This document shows positions 3,796-22,482 of a stretch of 34,358 nucleotides of DNA, piece after piece. The notes under the pieces were generated by a model that saw only the letters and a program-made list of their open reading frames with translations, was not told where the DNA came from and did no database searches. How positions within the stretch are numbered: position 1 is the stretch's first letter; each line of letters starts with the position of its first letter. The position numbers and the translations under genes are program-made. Source of the DNA: Alphaproteobacteria bacterium (GTDB taxonomy: Bacteria > Pseudomonadota > Alphaproteobacteria > Paracaedibacterales > CAIULA01); NCBI GenBank assembly GCA_026400645.1, contig JAPLOP010000031.1, positions 1-34,358 of the forward strand, in the 5' to 3' direction.

Positions 3796-5619
3796 ATGAC
3801 TTCTCTTCGTAATATCGCCATTATCGCCCACGTTGACCACGGAAAAACAACACTTGTTGATAGTATGCTAAAGCAAAGCGGAATTTTTCGCCTTAATCAA
3901 GCAGTTGCTGAACGGGCAATGGATTCCAACGATTTAGAGCGCGAGCGTGGCATCACCATTCTTGCAAAGTGTACGTCCCTTAGCTGGAAAGATGTCCGAA
4001 TCAATATCGTCGACACACCAGGACATGCCGATTTTGGCGGCGAAGTTGAACGGATCCTGAGTATGGTTGATGGTGTTGTATTGCTGGTTGATGCAGCCGA
4101 AGGGCCTATGCCACAGACAAAATTCGTTTTGACCAAGGCTCTTAACCTGGGGTTGCGGCCAATTGTTGTCATTAACAAAATTGATCGTTCTGATGCCCGT
4201 CACGAAGAAGTCCTGAATGAAGTTTTTGATTTATTTTCAGCCCTAGAGGCCAGCGATGATCAGCTTGATTTTCCGGTTATTTTTGCATCTGGCCGAAGCG
4301 GCTGGGCAGTTAAAGATTTGTCAGAACCAAGAACCGACATTGCGCCGTTGTTCGACCTGATCCTTGAGCATGTTCCAGAACCAATCGCAGACCAAAATGC
4401 CCCATTCAGTATGTTGGTGACAACCCGTGAATACGATCCCTATCTTGGCCGTGTGCTAACGGGACGAATTTATGGCGGATCGATTAAACTAAACATGCCA
4501 ATCAAGGTTCTTGATGGCAGCGGCAAGGTTGTTGAAACAGGAAAAGCCACAAAAATTTTAACCTTCCGTGGATTGGAACGTATCCCCGTTGACCAAGCAG
4601 AGGCTGGTGATATTATCGCGATCGCTGGTTTGGAAAAAGCAACCGTTGCTGATACGATTGCTGCGCTTGAGGTTGACGTGGCCCTGCCATCGATTCCAAT
4701 TGATCCACCAACATTGGCCATGACATTTTCGATTAATGATTCCCCCTTGGCCGGTAAAGAGGGTACAAAATTAACATCACGTATTCTTCGTGAACGATTG
4801 ATGCGCGAAGTCGAAGGTAATATCTCGATTCGGATCAAAGAAACAGAAGACAAGGATGCGTTTGAGGTTGCTGGTCGTGGTGAATTGCAGCTAGGTGTTT
4901 TGATTGAAACCATGCGACGCGAAGGGTTCGAGCTGTCCATCAGTCGTCCCCGCGTATTGTATCAGACAGACGAAGCCGGGCAACGCCTTGAGCCGGTCGA
5001 AGAAATTCAAATCGACGTTGATGATGATTACGTTGGGGTTGTGGTTGAATCCATGAGTCAGCGCAAGGCCGAGATGACCGACATGCGTCCATCCGGCGGT
5101 GGCAAAACACGAATCATCTTTATTGGGCCATCACGCGGATTGATTGGATATCATGGTCCGTTCTTAACGGAAACACGTGGCACCGGAATCATGAGTCGTG
5201 TCTTTCATTCTTATGGCCCCTATCGCGGTCCCATCGGCGGACGTCACAACGGCGTTTTGATTTCAAACGGAAATGGCGACGCTGTTGCCTATGCCCTTTG
5301 GAAGGTTGAGGAGCGCGGACAGCTTTTTGTGAACCCAGGTGAAGCCCTTTATGAAGGCATGATCATCGGTGAAAACAGTCGCGATAATGACCTGGAGGTT
5401 AACGCCCTTCGTGGTAAGCAATTAACCAACGTTCGGGCATCCGGCAAGGATGAAGCCATTCGTTTGACGCCACCACGCATCATGACACTAGAGCAAGCCA
5501 TTGCGTATATCGAGGAAGACGAACGCGTCGAGGTCACGCCAAAATCGATTCGTTTGCGCAAGGCGATCCTGTGCCCCAATGACAGAAAACGGGCAGAGCG
5601 CGGCTCAAAAGAAAGATAG
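3796..5619 (+). CDS. typA: ribosome-associated GTPase TypA/BipA
   Basis: TypA is a translational GTPase related to EF-G and LepA that binds 70S ribosomes and aids 50S assembly and stress or cold growth. The 607-residue protein, the usual size, has G1 AHVDHGKTT (11-19), the RGITI switch I segment, G3 DTPGHADF (about 73-80) and G4 NKID (about 126-129). The rest matches the EF-G-like domains III and V, followed by the TypA-specific C-terminal domain (e.g. [17 protein letters not shown] and the final [13 protein letters not shown] segment). The ATG at 3796 gives the canonical N-terminus; its upstream Shine-Dalgarno is weak. It stands as a single gene after the two tRNAs. No clear intrinsic terminator was seen in the 146-nt space after it. 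Confidence 0.97.
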
Positions 5620-20541: not shown

Positions 20542-21228
20542 ATGGCAAAAATTTGTAAAAGACTAAAGGTTGCTTACGCCGCTGTTGACAAAAATAAAGT
20601 TTACGGCTTGGCAGACGCCATAAAGGTTTTAAAATCCGTGGCTAAAGCAAAATTTGACGAAACAATCGAAGTTTCGATGAATTTGAATATTGACCCCAGG
20701 AAAGCTGAGCAAAACATTCGTGGCGTTGTTCAGTTGCCTCATGGAACGGGAAAAACCTATAAGGTTGCTGTTTTTGCGAGGGGCCCAAAGGCAATAGAAG
20801 CAGAACAAGCTGGGGCTGACATCGTTGGTGCTGAGGAGCTGATGGAACAGATCCAAGCAGGGAATATCAATTTCGATCGTTGTATTGCAACGCCCGATAT
20901 GATGGGTCTTGTTGGTCGCGTTGGCAAGATATTGGGCCCACGTGGTTTAATGCCAAACCCAAAGTTGGGCACAGTGACTATGGACGTTGCCGCTGCAATT
21001 AAAGCCGTCAAGGGTGGCCAGGTAGAATACCGTGCTGAAAAAGCGGGTATTGTTCATTCTGGCGTTGGCAAAGTTAGCTTTGATGACAGTGCTTTGGTTG
21101 ATAACATCATGATTCTTATTGATGCTGTCACAAAGGCCAAGCCACTTGGTGTCAAAGGAACATATATCAAGAAAATGAGTCTTAGTTCGACAATGGGACC
21201 TGGTTTAACCTTTTCCATCGAAGGCTAA
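20542..21228 (+). CDS. rplA: 50S ribosomal protein L1
   Basis: L1 builds the mobile L1 stalk that helps release E-site tRNA, and represses its own operon. The 228 residues include [34 protein letters not shown] split by the family's two-domain pattern, the signature [22 protein letters not shown] (about 129-150), and [20 protein letters not shown]. Length is normal. It is the last gene before the intrinsic terminator at 21271. Confidence 0.98.
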
Positions 21229-21253
21229 GTTTTACGAGTTAAGGGATAAGTTA

Positions 21254-21282
21254 TTGACTTTCCCTTATGCCTGCCCTATGTT
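21254..21282 (+). promoter_or_regulatory. probable rplJL promoter
   Basis: TTGACT (21254-21259) and TATGTT (21277-21282) with an exact 17-nt spacer. Transcription would begin near 21289, just ahead of the L10 leader structure. The -10 box overlaps the stem and loop of the rplA terminator. A separate promoter between rplA and rplJ is known in E. coli. Confidence 0.6.
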
Positions 21283-21295
21283 AGGGCAGTTTTTT
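21271..21295 (+). terminator. intrinsic terminator after rplA
   Basis: CTGCCCTA (21271-21278) pairs perfectly with TAGGGCAG (21282-21289) around a TGT loop, followed directly by six T residues (21290-21295). This would end or attenuate rplK-rplA transcripts before rplJ. Confidence 0.85.
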
Positions 21296-21303
21296 GTCAA
21301 AGA

Positions 21304-21356
21304 CTGTGGGTGCTGTTTCGATGGGAACAGTTTAATGGCGCAAGCTGCCCGCACAG
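21304..21356 (+). promoter_or_regulatory. L10 leader (ribosomal protein L10-L7/L12 binding RNA)
   Basis: CTGTGGG (21304-21310) pairs with CCCGCACAG (21348-21356, one bulged G). Inside are a hairpin CTGTT/AACAG (21313-21330) and a second with GGCGCAAGC, joined by TTTAAT. The three-way layout with an AACAGTTTAATGGCGCAAGC core matches the known L10 leader with its kink-turn, where excess L10(L7/L12)4 represses rplJL translation. It lies 133 nt before the rplJ start, so repression must act through further folding of the leader. Confidence 0.65.
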
Positions 21357-21488
21357 ACAGAAGGGGAAAACGTTTTTGGGTGTTTTATTAAGTTACGTTA
21401 ACTTGATGGCATTTGAATCTTCCACTCCTTCTGTGGTCTTAATGGAGGCGATGTGGCCTTCATTGGCTTTTATTAGAGGAGTAGAGTA

Positions 21489-21995
21489 ATGGACCGTACG
21501 CAAAAAGAAGGTTTAGTCTTGCGTATGCGTGACGAATTGCAAAACGCACAAACAGTGATCGTGACACGTCAAGTGGGCCTCACTGTTTCTGAAGTTACTG
21601 CACTGCGTCGTCGTATGCGTGAATCACAAGCCGAGTTTAAGGTTTTAAAAAATACTCTCGCCCGACTAGCTGTAAAAGGGACAGCACTAGAAGGAATCAC
21701 CGAAATGCTTCAGGGGCCAACGGCTCTTGCGTATTCTAGTGATCCCATTAGTGCCGCAAAGGTCGCTGTAAAGTTCGCGAATGATAACAAGAAATTGGTC
21801 ATTGTTGGCGGATGTATGAACGGCCTAGTTTTGTCTGAAGATGCCGTGAAAGCACTTGCAACACTGCCATCTCTTGACGAACTGCGTGGAAAGATCATTG
21901 GTGTTATTTCTGCGCCTGCAACCAAACTGGCTATTTTGTTAAAGGAACCGGCGGCACGCGTTGCTCGGGTTCTGGCAGCAAAGGGTTCAGAGTAG
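21489..21995 (+). CDS. rplJ: 50S ribosomal protein L10
   Basis: L10 anchors L7/L12 dimers to the ribosomal stalk. The 168-residue protein starts with MDRTQKEGLVLRMRDEL and shows the family core AEFKVLKNTLARLAVKGT, the LQGPTALAYSSDPISAAKV strand and a C-terminal helix that binds L7/L12. ATG 21489 follows AGAGGAG. A 260-nt leader separates it from rplA and carries the L10-binding structure; rplL follows after 59 nt. Confidence 0.97.
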   Translation: MDRTQKEGLVLRMRDELQNAQTVIVTRQVGLTVSEVTALRRRMRESQAEFKVLKNTLARLAVKGTALEGITEMLQGPTALAYSSDPISAAKVAVKFANDNKKLVIVGGCMNGLVLSEDAVKALATLPSLDELRGKIIGVISAPATKLAILLKEPAARVARVLAAKGSE

Positions 21996-22054: not shown

Positions 22055-22420
22055 ATGGCAAAGTTAGCAAAAATCGTTGAAGAATTATCTGGTTTAACAG
22101 TTCTAGAGGCAGCCGAGCTGTCAAAAAGACTAGAAGAAACATGGGGCGTTAGCGCCGCTGCAGCCGTTGCTGCTGCACCAGCAGCACAAGCAGAAGTTGC
22201 AGAAGTTAAGACAGAATTTGATGTTTCATTGGATGAATTCGGTGCAAACAAAATCAACGTCATTAAAGAAGTTCGCGCGATTACTGGTTTGGGTCTCAAG
22301 GAAGCAAAAGACCTTGTAGAAGCCGCACCAAAGATGGTCAAGCAAGCAGTTTCAAAAGATGAAGCTGAAAAAATTAAGAAGCAGCTAGAAGAAGCTGGAG
22401 CAAAAGTTTCCATAAAGTAA
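22055..22420 (+). CDS. rplL: 50S ribosomal protein L7/L12
   Basis: The stalk protein that recruits and activates translational GTPases. The 121 residues comprise an N-terminal dimerisation domain (about 1-33), an alanine-rich hinge ([17 protein letters not shown], about 35-51) and the C-terminal factor-binding domain with [28 protein letters not shown] (about 69-96). ATG 22055 follows TTGGAGAG. An antisense open frame covering this gene reflects the alanine-rich codons and is not a gene. Confidence 0.98.
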
Positions 22421-22436
22421 TGGAAGCACTATTTTT

Positions 22437-22482
22437 CAAAAACTGTAGCGATGTTTTTTAGGGAGCATCGTTGCAGTTTTTG
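22437..22482 (+). terminator. attenuator-like long hairpin between rplL and rpoB
   Basis: Bases 22437-22453 pair with 22466-22482 over 17 continuous positions (two G-U pairs) around a 12-nt loop. The 3' arm contains TTTTT, so it could work as a partial intrinsic terminator or as an RNase III processing site. E. coli has both an attenuator and an RNase III site in the same rplL-rpoB interval, setting RNA polymerase below ribosomal protein output. Confidence 0.65.

Follow-up and report, generated by a model that had tools for sequence, protein, structure and literature searches.

A leader stem-loop ahead of rplJ with the anatomy of a terminator and overlapping promoter-like boxes in an alphaproteobacterium

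In the ribosomal protein operon analysed here, an old stem-loop adjoining the L10 leader appears to have gained, in one alphaproteobacterial lineage, both a tract of six T and the -35 and -10 boxes of a sigma-70-type promoter. We suggest, tentatively and at a little less than an even chance, that the lineage has thereby turned the leader hairpin into a partial terminator of rplKA and, on the same base pairs, a promoter of rplJL from which transcription would start just before the leader. That termination and initiation both occur at this site, and that each is only partly efficient, we infer from the sequence. The window, i.e., the whole stretch of DNA that was analysed, is the 34,358-nt contig JAPLOP010000031.1 (assembly GCA_026400645.1), and the features concerned are collected in Table 1.

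Table 1. Features from rplA to rplL in the window
Feature	Coordinates	Strand	Basis	Remarks
rplA (L1), upstream gene	20542..21228	+	open reading frame; tblastn against relatives; family search	stop codon 21226-21228
Hairpin 1, 5' member of a tandem stem-loop pair (rplA to L10 leader)	21239..21267	+	folding	
Promoter-like TTGACT-17-TATGTT	21254..21282	+	sequence scans	predicted start near G21289; discriminator AGGGCA
Hairpin 2, conserved stem-loop adjoining the L10 leader	21271..21289	+	scan; folding; positional conservation	
T6 tract TTTTTT	21290..21295	+		its two 3'-most bases open helix P1 of the L10 leader
L10 leader core, L10(L12)4 target by homology	21294..21364	+	covariance model R1, 71 bits (window among its building rows)	
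rplJ (L10), downstream gene	21489..21995	+	open reading frame; comparison with relatives	ATG at 21489
rplL (L7/L12), downstream gene	22055..22420	+	open reading frame	

The intergenic region between rplA and rplJ is 260 nt long, and the open reading frame after rplJ we take to be rplL from gene order and sequence. The stem of hairpin 2 begins only 42 nt after the rplA stop. Its 5' arm CTGCCCTA (21271-21278) and its 3' arm TAGGGCAG (21282-21289) enclose the loop TGT (21279-21281) in a perfect stem of 8 bp, 5 of them GC, with a calculated folding energy of -11.7 kcal/mol. To judge by anatomy, hairpin 2 together with the T6 tract is an intrinsic terminator of canonical form, with a GC-rich stem and a U tract that follows at once. 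When a strict terminator rule (a perfect stem of at least 7 bp with at least 4 GC, and at least 5 T in the next 6 positions) is applied to both strands of the 34-kb window, hairpin 2 with its T6 tract is the only site, found in two registers of one and the same hairpin, and shuffled 5-kb sequence gives 0.05 sites per strand. A looser rule returns ten terminator-like sites in the window, four of them on the + strand.

The core GTCNAAGACTGTRGGT...TTTAAT...GCCTGCA.AGACAGAAGG starts right after the T tract, so closely that the start of the leader falls inside the tract. We take this segment, by homology, to be an L10 leader and the target of L10(L12)4, with binding as a prediction. The covariance model R1 on which the assignment is based was built from an alignment of 16 order members, the window among them, and the structure of this alignment has six pairs in which both sides are changed in at least one sequence. 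The core is the sole match of R1 in the genome at E up to 0.001, with a score that is what it is by construction, the window being a building row. Independently of this, R1 matches 6 of 14 loci outside Alphaproteobacteria, upstream of rplJ (E up to 1). Escherichia coli was not among the matches of a search over 16 sources at E up to 1; when R1 is run on E. coli alone with filters off, the rplJ leader is recovered at L239:2313-2366 with 21.3 bits, and the next best match has 12 bits. For the E. coli L10 leader, a kink-turn site and translational control by L10(L12)4 are described in PMC10931766. The Rfam model RF00557 finds no L10 leader in 21200-21500, and its best match in the genome has 14.6 bits and lies on another contig, so that, with a cut-off of 44, assignment of the leader to RF00557 by score fails and the homology is shown by R1 instead. 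Among control genomes, too, no more than 3 of 14 pass this cut-off. An L10 leader model for Proteobacteria that includes the upstream stem-loop could be more sensitive than RF00557.

The corresponding stretch was compared in two sets of relatives. The order set includes Paracaedibacter, Odyssella, Finniella, and some Holosporales, and its 44 loci give 39 distinct intergenic regions; L030, a second, divergent copy with no intergenic region, was left out. For the class set, 103 of 115 genomes were matched, 101 of which remain once the window's own genome and those of its order are set aside; of these 101, 88 were read (28 + 60 loci), the other 13 being left out for weak matches or contig ends. 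Four loci in which no rplA was found (L160, L199, L206, and L234) were dropped, leaving 84, and 11 more lack the core according to a pattern of our own making, leaving 73, although some of those 11 (e.g., L167, L187, and L216) look like carriers of a variant core. The closest relatives that have the locus are distant, with 66-75% identity in L10. Between rplA and the core, the order relatives have two tandem stem-loops of differing sequence, the first comparable to hairpin 1 in most of them and the second ending, in most, 0-6 nt before the core.

Over this whole stretch, 35 of the 39 order intergenic regions fold better than their shuffles, with z below -2. When only the 45 nt before the core are folded, 37 of 39 order loci and 62 of 73 class loci have a hairpin of -6 kcal/mol or lower no more than 8 nt from the core, an energy threshold that is lenient for GC-rich genomes. 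The safer counts are those of z below -2 for the same 45 nt, which is reached by 31 of the 39 order/Holosporales loci and 41 of the 73 loci of the wider class. The evidence for the hairpin is in these z-scores; the comparison of hairpin 2 pairs used pairs picked by the fold and is therefore no independent test of covariation. In E. coli, a near-perfect stem-loop, GGAGCCTGG-CCTAT-CCAGGCCTCC, can be read by eye directly before GTCGAAGACC, and its inner part forms in a long fold. The upstream stem-loops of the E. coli leader belong to the published leader structures. Hairpin 2 is thus, as far as position and folding tell, the local form of an old stem-loop that adjoins the L10 leader core and that in relatives mostly lacks a T tract. 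As a general by-product, the L10 leader is seen to have an adjoining stem-loop throughout the Alphaproteobacteria sampled and also in E. coli; in the present genome the Rfam model misses this leader.

The T tract, unlike the hairpin, is not old. Of the 39 order/Holosporales loci, the window alone has five or more T among the 8 nt that follow the hairpin; in the class sample, L198 and L230 reach 5 T, but not as an unbroken run of six. In the same family as the window, L002, L007, and L014 have hairpin 2 without the T6 tract or the boxes, and the TTGACT that occurs nearby in L002 is at another distance from the core (p = 0.15). A dedicated and conserved terminator between rplKA and rplJL is therefore rejected, since the hairpin is kept in relatives and the T tract is not. 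The original prediction had read the site as a perfect terminator hairpin and T run with the -10 box of TTGACT-17-TATGTT on its stem and loop, and in sequence and coordinates all of this is as it claimed. Its terminator between rplA and rplJ stands in so far as the anatomy is canonical, but not as a dedicated element, since most relatives keep the stem-loop without the tract. The interpretation is in this way partly supported: the overlap it saw is real, and an ancient leader stem-loop was mistaken for a dedicated terminator.

That the stem-loop is found across the class with neither T tract nor promoter is also what would be expected if hairpin 2 were an ordinary leader hairpin, the T tract an accident or an extension of P1, and the boxes fortuitous, so that rplJL would be expressed by read-through, as is presumed for relatives. 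In a fold of 21200-21420, pairing between the T tract and the leader segment GACAGAAGG is possible, and the tract, hence, need not serve termination. This explanation is a serious possibility, to which we nevertheless give clearly less than an even chance. A GC-rich stem of 8 bp with six T directly after it is a textbook terminator, and downstream RNA, which has still to be transcribed when the polymerase reaches the tract, cannot undo it by folding. The explanation must also regard as fortuitous a strict promoter pattern that is locally rare and sited at the leader boundary.

The promoter-like sequence consists of the -35 box TTGACT (21254-21259), a spacer of 17 nt, and the -10 box TATGTT (21277-21282), the latter imperfect. 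The 3' part of hairpin 1 overlaps the -35 box and the spacer, and the -10 box extends from the two loop-proximal bases of the 5' arm of hairpin 2 through its loop to the first base of its 3' arm. How much weight such a match can carry depends on the rule by which it is counted. When the 99 nt before the leader are shuffled 20,000 times with dinucleotides preserved, the pattern TTGAC-N17/18-TATNNT occurs in 32 of the shuffles, compared with 906 for a looser 9-of-12 rule (p ~0.045), and over 4 kb the looser rule gives 8 sites, versus 6.2 +/- 2.5 in shuffles. Only two sites in the window, at 4589 and 21254, combine TTGAC with TATNNT, and the second of these is the only high-scoring promoter candidate between rplA and the leader. 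Genome-wide, the strict pattern is found 33 times, against 17 times for a reversed control pattern, i.e., about twofold in excess, which makes a bare match roughly an even bet before its intergenic and correctly oriented position is counted. Among the 30 of these 33 sites for which loci were returned, 10 lie outside open frames of at least 100 aa, the window site being one of them. Another of the 10, with the same spacing, TTGACA-17-TATAGT, lies 22 bp before a tRNA-Met gene in this genome, from which follows that the organism plausibly uses promoters of this type.

In relatives, promoters were scored with weights of our own, which were chosen after the window site was known and so favour it; with this score, 7 of 112 loci have p <= 0.05, compared with 5.6 expected, i.e., chance overall. 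Within order and Holosporales the same level is reached by 1 of 39 loci, the window itself, and a conserved rplJ promoter in the order is for this reason rejected. The preservation of both motifs together, to which the original prediction had looked, was checked and is not found, T tract and promoter each being confined to the window among the 39 order/Holosporales loci, and in no relative examined do T tract and promoter boxes combine on the hairpin. At p <= 0.01 there are four loci, namely the window (L001), L149, L161, and L215. In L161 and L215 the candidate promoter is upstream of most or all of hairpin 2. The rplA-rplJ intergenic region of L161 is 1185 nt long owing to a long insertion, with a terminator-like hairpin after rplA and TTGACT-16-TATCAG before hairpin 2, and it may represent an operon split of the same sense as that proposed for the window, reached by another route. 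L149 has two tandem copies resembling the L10 leader, with a TTGACA-type promoter directly before the first, additional copy, and is the nearest parallel to the window.

One may further ask how often a promoter nested in a terminator is to be expected. In 400 kb of the 1.32-Mb genome there are 108 terminator-like and 507 promoter-like sites, and 3 nested pairs, where random placement predicts about 2 (108 x 507 x about 31 / 800,000). A recurrent nested design in this genome is thereby rejected on these 400 kb, 3 pairs against about 2 being chance, and the same count agrees with an ordinary leader hairpin. An exact-phrase search of the open-access literature, in which most subscription journals are missing and whose outcome is accordingly weak, returned no account of a terminator with a promoter inside it at rplA-rplJ. 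Against the combined reading, in which T tract and boxes act together, stand these chance-level pairs, the absence of conservation of T tract and promoter, the imperfect -10 box, and the borderline p value under the loose rule. In its favour we count that T tract and promoter, each unique among 39 loci, coincide in one genome. The best argument for a real promoter is the position of its predicted start, for a start near 21289 is the last place from which a complete leader can be made.

The combined reading may be spelled out as follows. A polymerase arriving from rplKA would form the hairpin and the U tract and stop part of the time 7-9 nt past the hairpin, leaving 3' ends at about 21296-21298, inside the first bases of the L10 leader. 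A polymerase that reads through would make an rplJL mRNA with hairpin and leader, i.e., the ancestral form. Initiation 7 nt after the -10 box, at about G21289, would make a second rplJL mRNA, which begins 5 nt before the leader and lacks the hairpin. The 3' end of the rplKA message would then share about 8-10 nt with the 5' end of the rplJL message, and a polymerase stopping there would cover the new promoter. Since both rplJL mRNAs would keep the whole L10 target, feedback by L10(L12)4 would be kept, and the transcription of rplJL (together with rpoBC) would depend less on that of rplKA. A strong terminator would make a promoter for rplJL-rpoBC necessary.

An extension of this scheme gives the one hairpin three roles, as leader stem-loop on the read-through mRNA, as terminator of rplKA, and as promoter DNA for rplJL. 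A polymerase stopped at 21296-21298 would occupy the first bases to be transcribed from the new promoter, from which follows that termination and initiation would exclude each other in time, and the output of L11-L1 would be inversely coupled to that of L10-L12 (and of RNA polymerase). This extension we consider unlikely. The rplJL mRNAs with and without the stem-loop could also differ in their response to L10(L12)4.

Unlikely as well is a terminator without a nested promoter, which would attenuate transcription from rplKA into rplJL-rpoBC and so set the ratio of the products, the downstream RNA coming from read-through or from promoters inside rplA. The terminator match is indeed stronger than the promoter match, and promoter-like matches do occur inside rplA, at 20608 and 21083; however, these are found at the rate of chance, and neither combines TTGAC with TATNNT. 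It is, finally, improbable that the promoter is used without effective termination, with elongation factors or ribosomes close behind on rplA favouring read-through, for although the promoter is sited at the leader boundary and the short distance from the rplA stop to the stem could bring a trailing ribosome near, that ribosome should halt before it reaches the stem, whose strength, like the T tract, is that of efficient terminators.

The proposed arrangement can be compared with four known systems. It is like the E. coli rplJL L10 leader (RF00557) in that the core is directly upstream of rplJ and a near-perfect stem-loop adjoins it, and unlike it in that the stem-loop of the window has a T6 tract after it and promoter boxes inside. 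The E. coli promoter-like sequence TTGTCT-17-TATAAT (L239:2107-2135) lies close to the stop codon of rplA and a long way 5' of the stem-loop, so that the stem-loop would be inside the E. coli rplJ transcript, whereas the start predicted for the window is at the 3' foot of the stem-loop. If rplJL is transcribed apart from rplKA, from a promoter lying between rplA and rplJ, this would itself be a likeness to the internal promoter of the E. coli rplKAJL-rpoBC operon. In PMC12083536, this operon is given three promoters and is one of the E. coli operons named in a treatment of polymerase collisions and of promoters internal to operons. The Bacillus subtilis rplJL attenuator also has a terminator hairpin and an L10 leader ahead of rplJ, but there, according to PMC4538822, the L10-binding structure precedes and controls the terminator, whereas in the window the terminator would precede the leader. 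With the leader downstream of the hairpin, L10 binding could not control a terminator at hairpin 2. Intrinsic terminators of the alphaproteobacterium Zymomonas mobilis consist, according to PMC7566282, of a hairpin and a U tract with stops about 7 nt after the hairpin, and the termination window given there is 7-9 nt past the stem. The stem in the window has 8 bp, compared with a mean of about 11 bp in that text, and differs further by its overlap with promoter and leader.

If the combined reading is true, what in relatives appears to be an operon of a single block has been split by very few changes. For the existing leader stem-loop to act as a terminator, the gain of a T tract would be enough, and the promoter could arise within it, the feedback leader downstream staying whole. 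The site would then be a place, in front of the ribosomal stalk and RNA polymerase genes, where the ending and the starting of transcription on identical base pairs could be put to the test.

Some further observations concern the surroundings of the locus. No match to rplA was found in 4 of the 8 genomes of the window's family; these four (G001, G004, G005, and G007), of which three are rated at least 90% complete, have no match to rplJ either. L030 (G033:C37) has a second, divergent rplJ with 34% identity; its genome is rated 4% contaminated, and this copy is probably foreign DNA in the assembly. An unpaired GAAATTC-like motif is found 5' of hairpin 1, right after the rplA stop, in L002, L003, L005, L007, L008, and L027; many members of the order have it, and the window does not. 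It resembles an RNase E site and, as such, would fit processing between rplA and rplJ. At 22440-22481, in the rplL-rpoB gap of the window, an imperfect stem-loop of some length with T's after it can be seen by eye, its loop being too long for the terminator scan, and its position is that of the E. coli rplL-rpoB attenuator.
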